From assembly GCA_022826665.1 (NCBI GenBank), contig JAJDUK010000102.1, positions 1 through 61,142 of the forward strand: DNA of 61,142 nt. Reading direction: 5' to 3'. Position 1 is the stretch's first letter. Each line of letters starts with the position of its first letter. The DNA comes from Alphaproteobacteria bacterium (lineage in GTDB: Bacteria > Pseudomonadota > Alphaproteobacteria > UBA828). Shown here piece by piece: positions 32,794 to 37,749 of the stretch. The notes below the pieces were generated by a model. The model saw nothing but the letters and a program-made list of their open reading frames with translations, was not told where the DNA came from and ran no database searches. The translations under genes were made by a program, and so were the position numbers.

Positions 32794-34304
32794 CGGCCGC
32801 ACCCTCCCGCCGCGCGGTGCTGCGCGCGCTGGGCACCCTGCCGGTCGTCATGGCGGCCGGCGGGGCAGGGGCAGCGGCGGCCGATGCCGCCGATGCCGCG
32901 CCCGCGCTCACGGCCGATCAGCGCCGGCTCGCGTTCGCCACGGCACCGGCCGAAACACTCGCCGCGCCGCTCACCACGCTTGCCGGCGGCCTGCCGCCCG
33001 ACCTCACCGGCGTGCTCTGGCGCAATGGCCCGGCGGAGCACGAACGCTTCGGCCACCGCTACGGCCACTGGTTCGATGGCGACGGCATGGTGCAGGCTTT
33101 CACCTTCACGGGGGCCAGCGTGAGTCACCGCGCCCGCATCCTGGACACGCCGAAACGAAGGCGGGAGACGGCGGCAGGCAAGCGCCTCCTGCCAGCCTTC
33201 AGCACCTTACCCCCCGAGGTCGCGCCGATCATGGCGCCCGACGACATGAACGCCGCCAACACCTCCGTGCTCGCCCACGGCGGGCGGCTCATGGCGCTCT
33301 GGGAGGGGGGCTCGGCGCTGGAATTCGATTCCGAGACCCTGGAAGCCGGCGACTTCGTCTCCTGGCGACCGGACCTCGCCGGCGCGCCCTTCTCAGCCCA
33401 TCCCAAGGTCGAGGCGGACGGCACCTGCTGGAACATCGGCTGCGTCACCTTCCCCCGGCTGATGCTGCTGTTCTACCGCATCGACCCGCAAGGCCGGCTC
33501 GCCGCGTTCAACGCCCTGCCGGTTGACCCACTCGGCATGGTCCACGACTACGTCGTGACCAAGCGCCATCTGGTGCTTGTCGTGCCGCCCTTCGTGATCG
33601 AGCCAGAGCGCTTCGCCGCCGGCCCTATCAGCTTTCTCGATGCCCATGTCTGGCGGCCCGAGCTCGGCACCCGCGTGATCGTGGTGGACAAAGAGACGCT
33701 CGCCCCGGTCCGCCGCTACGACCTGCCGCCGGGCTTCCACTTCCACCACGGCAACGGCTGGGAGGAGGCGGACGGCACCATCCACCTCGATCTCTGCCAG
33801 GCGGCGGACCCGATGTTCGCCATCCACGACCTGCGCGCGGTCATGGAGGGCGACTGGGGCTTCCCCTCCGCCCACCCACACTACCGCCGCATGGTGCTGC
33901 GGCCCGGCGGGGCTGCCGCGATAGAACAGGTGGCTACGGCCGTGGCGGATTTTCCGCGCATCGACCCGCGCCGCACCGGGCTCCGGCACCGCGCGCTCTT
34001 CGCGCTCACCGGCGCGCGGGACGGCGGCTGGCCGCTCTCACGGGTCGGTCGGATCGATCCCGATCACGGTGTGGTCGATGGCTGGACCTACCCGCGCCAC
34101 CTGATCCCGGAGGAGCACGTGTTCGTGCCGCGCGGGACGGCGGAGGGTGACGGCTGGCTGGTAGGCCCCTTCCTCGATCTGGAGCGCAGCGCCGCCGGGC
34201 TCAGCGTCTTCGAGGCCCGGCACCTCGCCGACGGGCCGCTCTGGCAGGGTCTCCTGCCCTACCCGCTCCCCCTCGGCCTGCACGGGACATTCGTGGCGGC
34301 CTAG
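32790..34304 (+). CDS. Carotenoid oxygenase family protein, Tat-type signal
   Basis: 504-residue RPE65/carotenoid-cleavage-dioxygenase fold. Four candidate iron-ligand His are seen in order: FSAHPK, VHDYVVTK, FHHGNG and the final LHGTF. GHWFDGDGM is the usual N-terminal propeller motif. The N-terminus SRRAVLRALG followed by an Ala-rich stretch looks like a twin-arginine signal, unusual for a family that mostly works in the cytoplasm. DUF2141-carotenoid oxygenase pairs suggest cleavage of a carotenoid or stilbene at the cell envelope. Confidence 0.88.
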   Translation: MTAAPSRRAVLRALGTLPVVMAAGGAGAAAADAADAAPALTADQRRLAFATAPAETLAAPLTTLAGGLPPDLTGVLWRNGPAEHERFGHRYGHWFDGDGMVQAFTFTGASVSHRARILDTPKRRRETAAGKRLLPAFSTLPPEVAPIMAPDDMNAANTSVLAHGGRLMALWEGGSALEFDSETLEAGDFVSWRPDLAGAPFSAHPKVEADGTCWNIGCVTFPRLMLLFYRIDPQGRLAAFNALPVDPLGMVHDYVVTKRHLVLVVPPFVIEPERFAAGPISFLDAHVWRPELGTRVIVVDKETLAPVRRYDLPPGFHFHHGNGWEEADGTIHLDLCQAADPMFAIHDLRAVMEGDWGFPSAHPHYRRMVLRPGGAAAIEQVATAVADFPRIDPRRTGLRHRALFALTGARDGGWPLSRVGRIDPDHGVVDGWTYPRHLIPEEHVFVPRGTAEGDGWLVGPFLDLERSAAGLSVFEARHLADGPLWQGLLPYPLPLGLHGTFVAA

Positions 34305-34331
34305 CGGCCGCGGTCATCATCATTTTGCCCC

Positions 34332-34364
34332 TTGACGAGTGCTCATATAGAACAAATAATGAAC
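34332..34364 (+). promoter_or_regulatory. SOS promoter: -35/-10 with alphaproteobacterial LexA box
   Basis: TTGACG (34332-34337), a 17-base spacer, then AATAAT (34355-34360), each one mismatch from consensus. GAAC-AAATAAT-GAAC (34350-34364) is exactly the GAAC-N7-GAAC box bound by alphaproteobacterial LexA, and it covers the -10. Transcription should start near 34367. Confidence 0.75.
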
Positions 34365-34427
34365 ATTCAGTCGAACACCATCGGGGCCAGACCATGCCTC
34401 AACGGCGAAACTATCGAAGGAGCGGCA

Positions 34428-34484
34428 ATGACAGTGATACACTCTCTTTTCTGCTGTTGCCGATGCAACGCAATCGGCAACTGA
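34428..34484 (+). CDS. Possible Cys-rich leader peptide
   Basis: An 18-codon frame (MTVIHSLFCCCRCNAIGN) with a perfect AAGGAG 5 bases upstream. It lies between the SOS promoter and the DUF5131 gene, whose own start lacks a clear RBS and lies 19 bases after this stop. It could couple translation. It may also be chance. Confidence 0.3.
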   Translation: MTVIHSLFCCCRCNAIGN

Positions 34485-34503
34485 TATCGCGCGGATTATC
34501 GAA

Positions 34504-35265
34504 ATGGGTGATAGCTCCTCGATTGAGTGGACGGACGCGACTTGGAACCCGGTGACGGGTTGCACCAAAATCACTCGTGGCTGCGACCATTGCTACGCCG
34601 AGCGGTTCTCTGAGCGTTTCCGCGGAACACCCGGTCATCCATTCGAGAACGGTTTCGATCTTACACTTCGCCCCGATCGACTTTCCCAACCATTTTCATG
34701 GAAGCGACCTCGCAGAATTTTTGTCAATTCAATGAGCGATTTATTTCATAAGAAAATACCGCGGAGCTTCATTGACAGAGTATTCGACACTATGGAATCA
34801 GCGGATAGACATGTGTTCCAGGTGCTCACGAAACGAAGTTCCTTGATGAGGAACTACTTGCGTTATCGGTATGGTAGTGGTGTTGCACCCATACATATTT
34901 GGTGCGGCGTATCGGTCGAAGACCATATGGCAACCGCGAGAATCCGGCATCTAAAGGGTGCACCAGCATCAGTTCGCTTTCTGTCCATCGAACCACTCTT
35001 GGGCCCTGTAGGTGAAATTGATTTGGAGGGTATTTCTTGGGTCATAGTCGGGGGAGAGAGTGGTCCCAAAGCTCGACCAATGAATGAAGAGTGGGTTCTC
35101 GATATCCGAGACATGTGCAAAGAGCAAGGTGTCCATTTTTTCTTCAAGCAGTGGGGTGGTTTGAGGCCCAAATCCGGTGGACGGAGACTTGAAGGAGTTG
35201 AGCACAATTCAATGCCAACTCTCTTGAAAAAGGACCGTGTTCATGCCCTTCAAGTGGCATCCTGA
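34504..35265 (+). CDS. Phage Gp37/Gp68 family (DUF5131) three-Cys-motif protein
   Basis: 253 residues. The N-terminus SSIEWTDATWNPVTGC leads into Cys20-x6-Cys27-x2-Cys30, a radical-SAM-like cluster motif, and the rest (IFVNSMSDLFH, FQVLTKR, VIVGGESGPKARPM) is typical of the family. Members occur in phages and bacterial islands; the reaction is unproven. Base composition here is far less GC-rich than the surroundings, indicating transfer. A LexA-box promoter lies 130 bases upstream. It overlaps TcmP by 23 bases. Confidence 0.88.
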   Translation: MGDSSSIEWTDATWNPVTGCTKITRGCDHCYAERFSERFRGTPGHPFENGFDLTLRPDRLSQPFSWKRPRRIFVNSMSDLFHKKIPRSFIDRVFDTMESADRHVFQVLTKRSSLMRNYLRYRYGSGVAPIHIWCGVSVEDHMATARIRHLKGAPASVRFLSIEPLLGPVGEIDLEGISWVIVGGESGPKARPMNEEWVLDIRDMCKEQGVHFFFKQWGGLRPKSGGRRLEGVEHNSMPTLLKKDRVHALQVAS

Positions 35266-36493
35266 AGAACCTCCTCCCATCATCGAGGAACATAGCAAGG
35301 CAAAACTCCTCGTATTGCGCAAATGTCTTCGCGCCTATTTCGATAGACTAAATGTCAATCCGAATCGAGAGGAGTTCAAACTTGACTTGGTTGATGGATT
35401 TGCCGGCGGTGGCACCTTCCGCGACGGCGATGATATCGTGTCTGGTTCACCGCTAGTCATGTTGGAAGAAGTGGAAACAGCCAGAGGGCGTCTCAATCGG
35501 AAGCGTAACAAACCGTTGCGCGTCGATTGTAAGTGTTACTTTGTGGATGTTGAGCAGGCGCATACAGATCATTTGCGAAGGACATTGATTGAACGAGACC
35601 ATGTTGTTGATAGCACGGAAATTGTCGTTCTCAATGAAGCATTCGAGAATGTTGTCGATGATATTTCCACTAGCATTCGTCACCGGCAACCGCGTGCGGG
35701 TCGCGCGATCTTCCTGCTTGATCAAACCGGATTCTCGCGAGTGGAGCTTACGCTTGTTGCTCGAATTCTGTCCGAACTGCCAGCCGCGGAGGTAATTCTG
35801 ACGTTTGCTGCTGATGTGCTCACTAATCATCTTGCCGAAACACCACAGATAATCAAGTCGGTCGCCCCTCTCCAAATGACGGAGGCGCAGATACGAGACT
35901 TGATCGAACAACGAGACGGAAGCGGTGGACGAGCACTGGTTCAACGAACTCTTCGAGGCCATGTGCGTTTGATGACCGGTGCTACCTTCGACACGCCGTT
36001 TTTTATCCGGCCGGTGCAATCGCGACGCGCGCTATGGTTTTTGCACTTGTCGCGGCATCCGACAGCAAGAGATGTGATGGTCCGACTCCATTGGGAGACG
36101 CACAATACATTCGAGCACTACGGCCCAGGCGACTTCGGAATGCTTGGATGGGACGCATTGAGACCCAATGACATACCTCTGTTTAATTTTGAGGATTTAG
36201 AGGCGCAACAGATGCAACGCCAACTTTTGGAATCAATGCCGAAAAGGCTGTTCGGGTTGGCATCGGAGGAGCCAATTTCAGTGGAGGCTCTGCGATATGC
36301 GGTGGCCAATGAGACCGCAGCCCGGTTTTCTGATCTCGACAAGACTCTGCTCACGCTCGCAGGTGAAAGAAAAATCGAAATTTTGAATGTGGATGGAAAA
36401 CGCCGTTCGCGCGGGCTCACGCGCCTTAGAGCGACTGACAGAATTGCCTTCCCGGACACGCTGTTTCTTCCTGGATTTTCGCGCTTGCGCTGA
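35243..36493 (+). CDS. tcmP: Three-Cys-motif partner protein TcmP
   Basis: 416 residues from ATG 35243, chosen over GTG 35237 because AGGA is then at proper spacing. The N-terminal half has methyltransferase-like features: KLDLVDGFAGGGTFRDG resembles SAM motif I, GSPLVML follows, and FLLDQTGFSRV stands where D-P-x-G is usual. TcmP is known only as the constant neighbour of DUF5131 three-Cys proteins, as here. Low GC matches its partner. I infer a SAM-dependent modification system with the DUF5131 protein, perhaps acting on nucleic acid after DNA damage. Confidence 0.85.
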   Translation: MPFKWHPEEPPPIIEEHSKAKLLVLRKCLRAYFDRLNVNPNREEFKLDLVDGFAGGGTFRDGDDIVSGSPLVMLEEVETARGRLNRKRNKPLRVDCKCYFVDVEQAHTDHLRRTLIERDHVVDSTEIVVLNEAFENVVDDISTSIRHRQPRAGRAIFLLDQTGFSRVELTLVARILSELPAAEVILTFAADVLTNHLAETPQIIKSVAPLQMTEAQIRDLIEQRDGSGGRALVQRTLRGHVRLMTGATFDTPFFIRPVQSRRALWFLHLSRHPTARDVMVRLHWETHNTFEHYGPGDFGMLGWDALRPNDIPLFNFEDLEAQQMQRQLLESMPKRLFGLASEEPISVEALRYAVANETAARFSDLDKTLLTLAGERKIEILNVDGKRRSRGLTRLRATDRIAFPDTLFLPGFSRLR

Positions 36494-36543
36494 GCGAGGC
36501 ACGGAGCTTCCCGTGTGTTACCAGTCTAAGCGGAAGTGCAGCT

Positions 36544-37749
36544 TCAGAGCCCCGGGTCGGCGGAGGGGAGGCCAAGCAGGACGCCGCCGTGGTTCGACGC
36601 GTTCACGTCCCAGTTCTGGGTGATGTGCCCGCGGATGCAATTGACATCGCGCATGGCGCGCGAGAGCGGGTTGCTGTCGTAGAGCCCGGCGCCGCCCGAG
36701 AGGTGGAACAGCAGGTCCACCGCCTCGGCCGCGAGCTTGCCCGCCATGGTCGCCTGGGCGCGCAGCTCGGATTTCTTCGGCATCGGCGCGGTCCCGCCGC
36801 TCTCGGCGATCGCCATGCCCTTGTCGCAGCAGTGGTGCAGCAGCAGGCGCGCCGTCTCGATCTTGGTGTGGGCCTCGGCCACCTTGACCTGCGCGGTGGA
36901 GTAGTCGGCCATGCTCTTGCCGGACATCCGCGCGACGCGGTCGCGGGTGCGCGCGACGAAATCGTCGTAGACCGCCTGGGCCACGCCGAGCGCAGGGACG
37001 CTCTGGTTGATGGAGAACATGGCATAGGCCGGCAGCTTGTAGAGCGCCGCGTCGTTCACGGCGCATCCCGGTGCGGTGCCGCCGCCCTTGGTGGCGTCGA
37101 TGGTAAGCGCGCGGCAGTCCGGCACGAAGACGTCATCCACGGCGACGTCGGCGCTGCCGGTGCCGCGCAGGCCCGCGGTGTGCCAGGTGTCGATGATCTC
37201 GTACTCGCCTTGCGGGATCGCGTGCATCTGGGCGAGCCTGGGCTCGTCGCCGTCTTCGGTGAAGGCGGCGGCGATGAACCAGTCGGCGCCGTAGACTCCG
37301 CTCGCGAACGGCCAGCGTCCGCTGATGCGCCAGCCGCCATCCACCCGCACCGCCCGGCCGCAGGCCGGGATCAGAACGCCCGCCACCATGGCGTCCGGCG
37401 TCGTGCCCCAAATCTCGTCCTGCCCCTCCGGCGGCCAGTAGCCCAGCAGGCAGTTGTGGGAGGAATACTGGACCAGGCACCAGCCGGCGGCGCTGCAGGC
37501 GATGGAGATGGCCTCCACGATATCGACCATGCCGGAATAATGCGCCTCGGCCCCGCCGTGCCGGGCGGGCTGCAGGATGCGGTGGATGCCGGCCTCGCGC
37601 ATCGCCTGCATGGTCTCGGGCGCGAGCCGACGGGTCTCCTCGGTCTCGTCCGACCGCTCGCGGATCGTCTCCGTGAGCCCCCTGGCACGCGCGAGCAGGT
37701 TTTCGCGAGTCCTCACCGCCGCCGCGTCTGACGCCGCCGCCTCGTTCAT
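36544..37749 (-). CDS. Acyl-CoA dehydrogenase-like flavin monooxygenase (HsaA type)
   Basis: 401 residues of acyl-CoA dehydrogenase fold (GWRISGRWPFASG; WHTAGLRGTGSADVAVDDVFVP), nearest in pattern to the two-component FMN monooxygenases HsaA/HpaB-like group D. The usual catalytic Glu of dehydrogenases is not obvious. Such oxygenases need a reductase; the flavin reductase at 4665-5195 is a possible but distant partner. It ends the minus-strand run that begins with ureE and ureG, only 6 bases after ureG. Confidence 0.75.
   Translation of the reverse strand: MNEAAASDAAAVRTRENLLARARGLTETIRERSDETEETRRLAPETMQAMREAGIHRILQPARHGGAEAHYSGMVDIVEAISIACSAAGWCLVQYSSHNCLLGYWPPEGQDEIWGTTPDAMVAGVLIPACGRAVRVDGGWRISGRWPFASGVYGADWFIAAAFTEDGDEPRLAQMHAIPQGEYEIIDTWHTAGLRGTGSADVAVDDVFVPDCRALTIDATKGGGTAPGCAVNDAALYKLPAYAMFSINQSVPALGVAQAVYDDFVARTRDRVARMSGKSMADYSTAQVKVAEAHTKIETARLLLHHCCDKGMAIAESGGTAPMPKKSELRAQATMAGKLAAEAVDLLFHLSGGAGLYDSNPLSRAMRDVNCIRGHITQNWDVNASNHGGVLLGLPSADPGL

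Follow-up and report, generated by a model that had tools for sequence, protein, structure and literature searches.

DUF5131 (PF07505) and TcmP (TIGR04474) are protein families whose pairing is already catalogued in NCBIfam and PADLOC, without a function. PADLOC lists the pair as the anti-phage candidates PDC-M30 and PDC-M41. In the window, i.e., the whole stretch of 61,142 nucleotides of alphaproteobacterial DNA that was analysed, a small island encodes two proteins of the same families, which are likewise adjacent; its TcmP is a divergent type with the sequence LLDQTG. The PADLOC B models match with E-values of 8e-102 (PDC-M30) and 8e-101 (PDC-M41), and the A models match the N-terminal part only (1e-16 and 7e-9, respectively); these models come without thresholds. 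A first-pass annotation had put the locus forward as the best candidate for a new system, which was too strong because the pair is already listed.

The spore photoproduct lyase (SPL)/SplB family (COG1533) and the PA0069/Rv2578c family have the SPL fold in common with DUF5131. In several species, radical-SAM proteins of the SplB type are under SOS control (PMC8565304; PMC3765255), and a PA0069-family gene of the present genome also has a LexA box. DUF5131 differs from these families in having a CX6CX2C motif and a methyltransferase partner, and no sequence similarity to them was found. RlmJ (DUF519), the N6-methyltransferase of A2030 in 23S rRNA, shares its fold and motif I with TcmP, whereas motif IV of TcmP is D-(P/Q)-x-G and not DPPY, and TcmP has an extra C-terminal winged-helix region, is mobile and is predicted to be SOS-controlled. 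Weak TIGR04474 matches in enteric bacteria are probably RlmJ-like proteins. As for the radical SAM mobile pair A/B (TIGR04471/TIGR04470), DUF5131 is a distant relative of A (73.7 bits, cut-off 355) and the PA0069-type protein of B (93 bits, cut-off 410), but the partner of DUF5131 is a methyltransferase. The imuA-imuB-dnaE2 mutagenesis cassette is also a mobile SOS cassette with the same type of LexA box and occurs in the same genome; however, it is polymerase-based and its proteins are unrelated.

In this study, we found that the DUF5131-TcmP pair very probably belongs to the DNA-damage response. This gives a physiological handle to an orphan pair that was listed only as an anti-phage candidate. 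The LexA link makes the function of the pair directly testable, and it affects how PDC-M30 is read in defence surveys. It is also suggested that SplB is not the only SPL-fold radical-SAM family for nucleic-acid repair or modification, DUF5131 being another. We found no statement on LexA control of DUF5131-TcmP in the open-access literature, which is not proof of absence.

The island and its two proteins

Judged from the same site in related genomes, the 2.2-kb island is an insertion. It is cleanly missing from four congeners (G002, G004, G006 and G007), in which the flanking genes are 13-172 bp apart, and it is located at the identical place in G005 and G772 (L013); orthologues have 88.5% DNA identity. 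The neighbours are a carotenoid-oxygenase-like gene and an acyl-CoA-dehydrogenase-like gene, names which we presume by eye. The GC content of the island is 0.509 and that of the rest of the window 0.694, and the island is the window's lowest-GC 2.2-kb stretch; GC3 of its two genes is 0.49 and 0.52, compared with 0.89 for the neighbouring gene. The foreign base composition and the horizontal acquisition proposed in the first-pass annotation are thus borne out by composition and by the empty site, respectively. Because G004, G006 and G007 hold DUF5131-TcmP pairs of different types elsewhere in their genomes, the pair seems to have entered the genus repeatedly. These comparisons support the idea that DUF5131-TcmP has moved as a unit.

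Table 1. Positions in the window of the island and of the elements within it.
Feature	Position	Strand	Basis or remark
Acquired island (promoter, LexA box, DUF5131, TcmP)	34304..36547	.	Empty site in congeners; GC 0.51 vs 0.69
-35 element TTGACG	34332..34337	+	Sequence; unchanged in orthologues
LexA box GAACAAATAATGAAC, covering the -10 element	34350..34364	+	GAACN7GAAC; unchanged in orthologues; resembles own imuA/recA boxes
-10 element AATAAT	34355..34360	+	17-bp spacing from -35
Possible 18-codon leader ORF, Cys-rich (MTVIHSLFCCCRCNAIGN)	34428..34484	+	Doubtful; within 5' untranslated region
DUF5131 (phage Gp37/Gp68 family), 253 aa, SPL-like radical-SAM fold	34504..35265	+	PF07505; AF2 model
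Codons of C20-X6-C27-X2-C30, probable [4Fe-4S] ligands	34561..34593	+	Cys invariance
TcmP, 416 aa, RlmJ-like class I methyltransferase domain and C-terminal winged-helix-like region	35243..36493	+	TIGR04474
TcmP motif I D51-x-F-A-G-x-G, SAM-binding loop	35393..35413	+	D51, G55, G57 invariant in family alignment
TcmP motif IV LLDQTG, residues 158-163	35714..35731	+	D160 invariant
TcmP C-terminal GMT-wHTH-like region (weak)	36182..36397	+	PF22560 16.4 bits, below cut-off 27

DUF5131 matches PF07505 over residues 5-238 with 319.2 bits (cut-off 28.9, E 2e-95), and all of the 49 homologues compared keep C20, C27, C30 and C205; C20, C27 and C30 are the probable ligands of a [4Fe-4S] cluster. The AF2 model (pLDDT 90.5) has the radical SAM hallmark, a partial TIM barrel with the Cys triad near the N-terminus. 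SPL is its top structural match with both programs used: the SPL matches of Foldseek (E 5e-4) are the sole ones under 0.001, and SPL is superposed with Z 13.3 over 194-196 residues at 2.9-3.0 Å. Next come viperin-like proteins (Z 11.4) and RlmN (Z 10.9), and LipA is also matched. The model supports the idea that DUF5131 is a radical-SAM protein with an SPL-like fold. It is not SPL by sequence, since CX6CX2C, which the family alignments show as well, differs from SPL's CX3CX2C. Pfam Radical_SAM (PF04055) gave no match to DUF5131, PF07505 being the only hit at E up to 1, and sequence searches of solved structures with DUF5131 and TcmP yielded nothing useful.

The TcmP gene starts at ATG 35243, with GTG 35237 as a possible alternative, and overlaps the DUF5131 gene by about 20 bp. 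Its product scores 168 bits against TIGR04474 (cut-off 53, E 4e-49) and adjoins the three-Cys protein, as the definition of that family asks. The AF2 model (pLDDT 78.6) was built on 17 sequences because TcmP relatives are sparse in viral contigs. It is superposed on RlmJ with Z 17.1 over 210 residues at 3.0 Å; the first ten rows of the search are RlmJ/DUF519 proteins (Z 16-17), and the nearest folds after them are Trm1 (Z 15.2) and TYW4. The catalytic motif DPPY of RlmJ is absent: the island protein has LLDQTG, and its relatives have DPFG or DQ(Y/C)G and never DPPY. DPFG is motif IV of Trm1, which is a lead only. In the C-terminal region, the relative L126 passes PF22560 with 58 bits. The description of the locus from its letters alone, as a Gp37/Gp68 three-Cys (CX6CX2C) protein that looks radical-SAM-like and overlaps a methyltransferase-like TcmP, was therefore correct as to family and overlap, and the folds support its two enzyme assignments.

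In pairs from the same genomes, the mean identity of DUF5131 stays at 52% while that of TcmP falls to 23%. This contrast suggests that the chemistry of DUF5131 is constant and that the TcmP partner is variable.

LexA boxes upstream of DUF5131-TcmP loci

One promoter precedes the overlapping DUF5131 and TcmP genes, a geometry of co-transcription. The first-pass annotation had described it as TTGACG-17-AATAAT with GAAC-N7-GAAC exactly over the -10 element, and this was confirmed at 34332-34364. The -35 element and 26 bp around the box are constant in the orthologues, while the flanking bases differ. GAACN7GAAC occurs once in the window, where 1.22 matches are expected by chance, and 65 times in the genome, where the reversed control pattern occurs 72 times. 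We therefore rejected the window or the genome alone as a measure of significance. Because the pattern is at background frequency, the single match is not significant by itself, and it is the comparison between loci that makes it so. Between the box and the start of DUF5131 there is a leader of 139 nt. The frame of the short ORF in it stays open in the orthologue L013, with GTG as the start there; its translation is putative and doubtful.

The LexA of this organism very probably uses a box of the GAACN7GAAC type, because lexA, imuA, recA, SRAP and PA0069-family genes have such boxes. The box of lexA, GAACCAAACTAGAAC, is 39 bp upstream. That of imuA, GAACAAATAGTGAAC, equals the island box in 14 of 15 bases, and the recA site, GAACAAATAGGGTAC, has one mismatch to the pattern and shares the core GAACAAATA with the island box. 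Two SRAP (HMCES/YedK-like) genes (L025 and L026; G000:C78 and C85) each have a perfect box about 40 bp upstream. A PA0069-family radical-SAM gene (SPL-like, COG1533-type) has one 18 bp before its start (L020:989-1003; G000:C32), and two SPL-fold families, DUF5131 and the PA0069 type, appear to be SOS-controlled in this genome. Separately, the boxes GAACATATTGAGAAC and GAACATATGCAGAAC are found near the starts of transposase-like genes (L023 and L024; G000:C92 and C104), which are possibly damage-induced insertion sequences.

DUF5131 loci were drawn over relatives, the class and the phylum, the systematic sampling covering Pseudomonadota; in almost all of them a TcmP gene adjoins DUF5131. Their upstream regions were scanned from -300 to +40. 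TcmP is above the cut-off in 30 of 387 sampled alphaproteobacterial genomes (about 8%). A perfect GAACN7GAAC was found in 19 of 41 alphaproteobacterial upstream regions; without the island's own, the 18 positives among 40 loci span 17 families. Sequences simulated with the same dinucleotide content (300 rounds) gave a mean of 0.48 and a maximum of 4 boxes. The reversed control pattern occurs once in the 41 regions, and the same loci contain 11 matches in 251 kb outside these regions. With the latter rate, and with the relatedness of the loci disregarded, the binomial tail is about 3e-24. The wrong spacings N5, N6, N8 and N9 gave no match in the first 31 alphaproteobacterial loci. All 19 boxes have GAACA in common, most being GAACAAA, and the box-positive loci include both gene orders.

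A perfect box is absent from 22 of the 41 alphaproteobacterial loci. No perfect box was found in the rhizobial plasmid loci L144 and L148, in the Methylobacterium and Acetobacter loci, or in Pseudomonas Tn4652-type loci. Boxes with one mismatch were not counted: with them the alphaproteobacterial number rises to 23 of 31, and that of the control to 9 of 31. One of the perfect matches, GAACAGAGATCGAAC (G589; viral contigs L156 and L159), differs in its core, lies at an almost fixed distance and is perhaps no LexA site; if it is dropped, 18 of 41 regions remain. Among DUF5131 copies in viral contigs the box occurs in 8 of 80, and the control in none.

The LexA box is CTGTN8ACAG in beta- and gammaproteobacteria and GAACN4GTTC in Gram-positive bacteria (PMC3323433). 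CTGTN8ACAG was found upstream in 3 of 13 gamma- and betaproteobacterial loci (CTGTATGAATATACAG, CTGTATGCATATACAG and CTGTGCAAATAAACAG), compared with 0.04 expected, and in perfect form it is absent from the other 10; the alphaproteobacterial type was found in none of the 13. GAACN4GTTC lies upstream of DUF5131 in two related Streptomyces plasmid loci (-153 and -157) but is absent from the six further actinobacterial loci examined, which is only suggestive. The survey supports the idea that the box at DUF5131-TcmP is swapped for each class's own version. It also supports LexA control as common but not universal, because about half of the loci have no perfect box. The first-pass annotation had named a lack of the box at other alphaproteobacterial loci as evidence against LexA control; the box recurs at 18 of 40 of them, against about 0.5 expected.

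Other links of the pair to the SOS response come from a plasmid and from mycobacteria. On a Comamonas plasmid, the gene of a LexA-like S24 repressor, whose HTH and autoprotease motifs were recognised by eye, overlaps DUF5131 and is followed by TcmP in one run. In Mycobacterium tuberculosis, Rv2734 is presumably a DUF5131 protein, judged from the convergent arrangement in Streptomyces plasmids. Rv2734-Rv2735c-recX-recA is the largest cluster of genes differentially expressed with mitomycin C (PMC5057432); part of the Rv2735c transcription is shared with recA-recX (PMC3062782). BCG_2748c, which is annotated as TcmP (PMC7387457), is probably Rv2735c. The mycobacterial mitomycin C data fit SOS control of the pair.

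Possible function of the pair and its rivals

The explanation that we prefer, at slightly better than an even chance, is that the pair is a mobile, SOS-induced two-enzyme cassette for nucleic-acid repair or modification. Direct reversal of lesions is the most likely function of such a cassette, and anti-phage use is its main rival. Direct repair is favoured because of the SPL fold and the contrast in constancy between DUF5131 and TcmP, and because SplB enzymes are known SOS genes. LexA at the box over the -10 element would keep the operon off, and DNA damage would turn it on through RecA-driven cleavage of LexA. DUF5131 would then take up a [4Fe-4S] cluster and SAM to yield a 5'-deoxyadenosyl radical acting on a nucleobase. 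Most likely, this radical would restore a damaged base or undo a crosslink in DNA, in the way that SPL reverses spore photoproduct. The variable parts of TcmP would hold the nucleic acid, and TcmP may present or methylate the target. It counts for the cassette that a Burkholderia plasmid copy follows an error-prone polymerase gene and is near a dTMP kinase gene. Several findings count against it: the loci without a perfect box; the CX6CX2C motif in place of CX3CX2C, the missing Radical_SAM match and the missing DPPY; the substrate of RlmJ, which is RNA; the variable partner and the carriage on phages and plasmids, which also suit defence; and the flanking genes, which are mostly ordinary. A wider proposal is that DUF5131-TcmP represents a widespread class of DNA repair that has so far gone unrecognised, induced by the SOS response and working by direct reversal. 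An SPL-fold lyase and a fast-diversifying targeting subunit of methyltransferase fold, spread between bacteria on mobile elements, would act on some lesion that is not spore photoproduct. This can be offered only tentatively, and we consider it rather doubtful as a whole.

An anti-phage module is a possible explanation that we nonetheless hold to be unlikely. In such a module, the DNA damage caused by infection would lead to cleavage of LexA, and replication or translation would be blocked through modification of phage (or host) nucleic acid by the pair. PADLOC lists the pair among phage-defence candidates, but the entry is based on guilt by embedding and not on a test (PMC10855318). Of 100 P. 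aeruginosa strains, 32 have PDC-M30, and 68.8% of these 32 are phage-resistant, although this figure is a correlation common to three candidates (PMC10855318). In Sinorhizobium meliloti, the TcmP gene SMa2243 stands beside the phage-defence gene hna in an expression table (PMC12445080). The carriage of the pair on plasmids, Tn4652-type elements and prophages, and the far faster diversification of TcmP than of DUF5131, would also agree with defence. However, few genes flanking the pair match defence models, so that no clear island is seen, LexA boxes across the class are a hallmark of damage genes, and phages carry DUF5131 themselves (161 records, mostly of Mycobacterium and Gordonia phages).

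SOS-induced modification of rRNA or tRNA after DNA damage is improbable. It is favoured by the closest folds of TcmP, which are RlmJ, acting on 23S rRNA, and then Trm1 and TYW4, acting on tRNA, and by the RNA radical-SAM methylase RlmN, which is also near DUF5131. But the best match of DUF5131, and its only significant one in Foldseek, is SPL, a DNA enzyme, and a fold says nothing on substrate. The chance is slight as well that DUF5131 serves mobile elements by modifying the bases of their own DNA, with LexA timing this to prophage induction or transfer. TcmP is found in only one phage record as opposed to the many with DUF5131, the viral-contig copies have boxes above the control, and DUF5131 adjoins DNA methyltransferase genes on Nocardia pNF2 and in viral contig L161; yet no further gene of a mobile element is present in the island, and the two enzymes persist on their own in a chromosome. 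It is very improbable that the box arose by chance and that the pair lies outside SOS control: over the genome the pattern is no more frequent than background, but at these loci it is conserved across 17 families, with the correct spacing only and with a class-specific switch of box.

Mobile carriage and gene neighbourhoods

Genes flanking DUF5131-TcmP loci are mostly ordinary, and enrichment of defence islands around the pair was not found. On Pseudomonas plasmids (L146, L147, L234, L238, L239 and L241), DUF5131-TcmP comes after a tnpS-like site-specific integrase/recombinase gene, which adjoins a cointegrate-resolution gene of the Tn4652 type; no perfect LexA box is present there. The pair looks in these plasmids as if it were a passenger or a part of a Tn4652-type transposon. 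DUF5131 is directly beside a gene for a DNA cytosine methyltransferase or a Dam-like (D12) methylase in L260 (the Nocardia pNF2 locus) and in L161. In the Burkholderia glumae plasmid locus L145, the genes for an error-prone DNA polymerase, a divergent second TcmP, DUF5131, TcmP, a radical-SAM protein and dTMP kinase stand in a row, which hints at a larger cassette for the repair or modification of bases.
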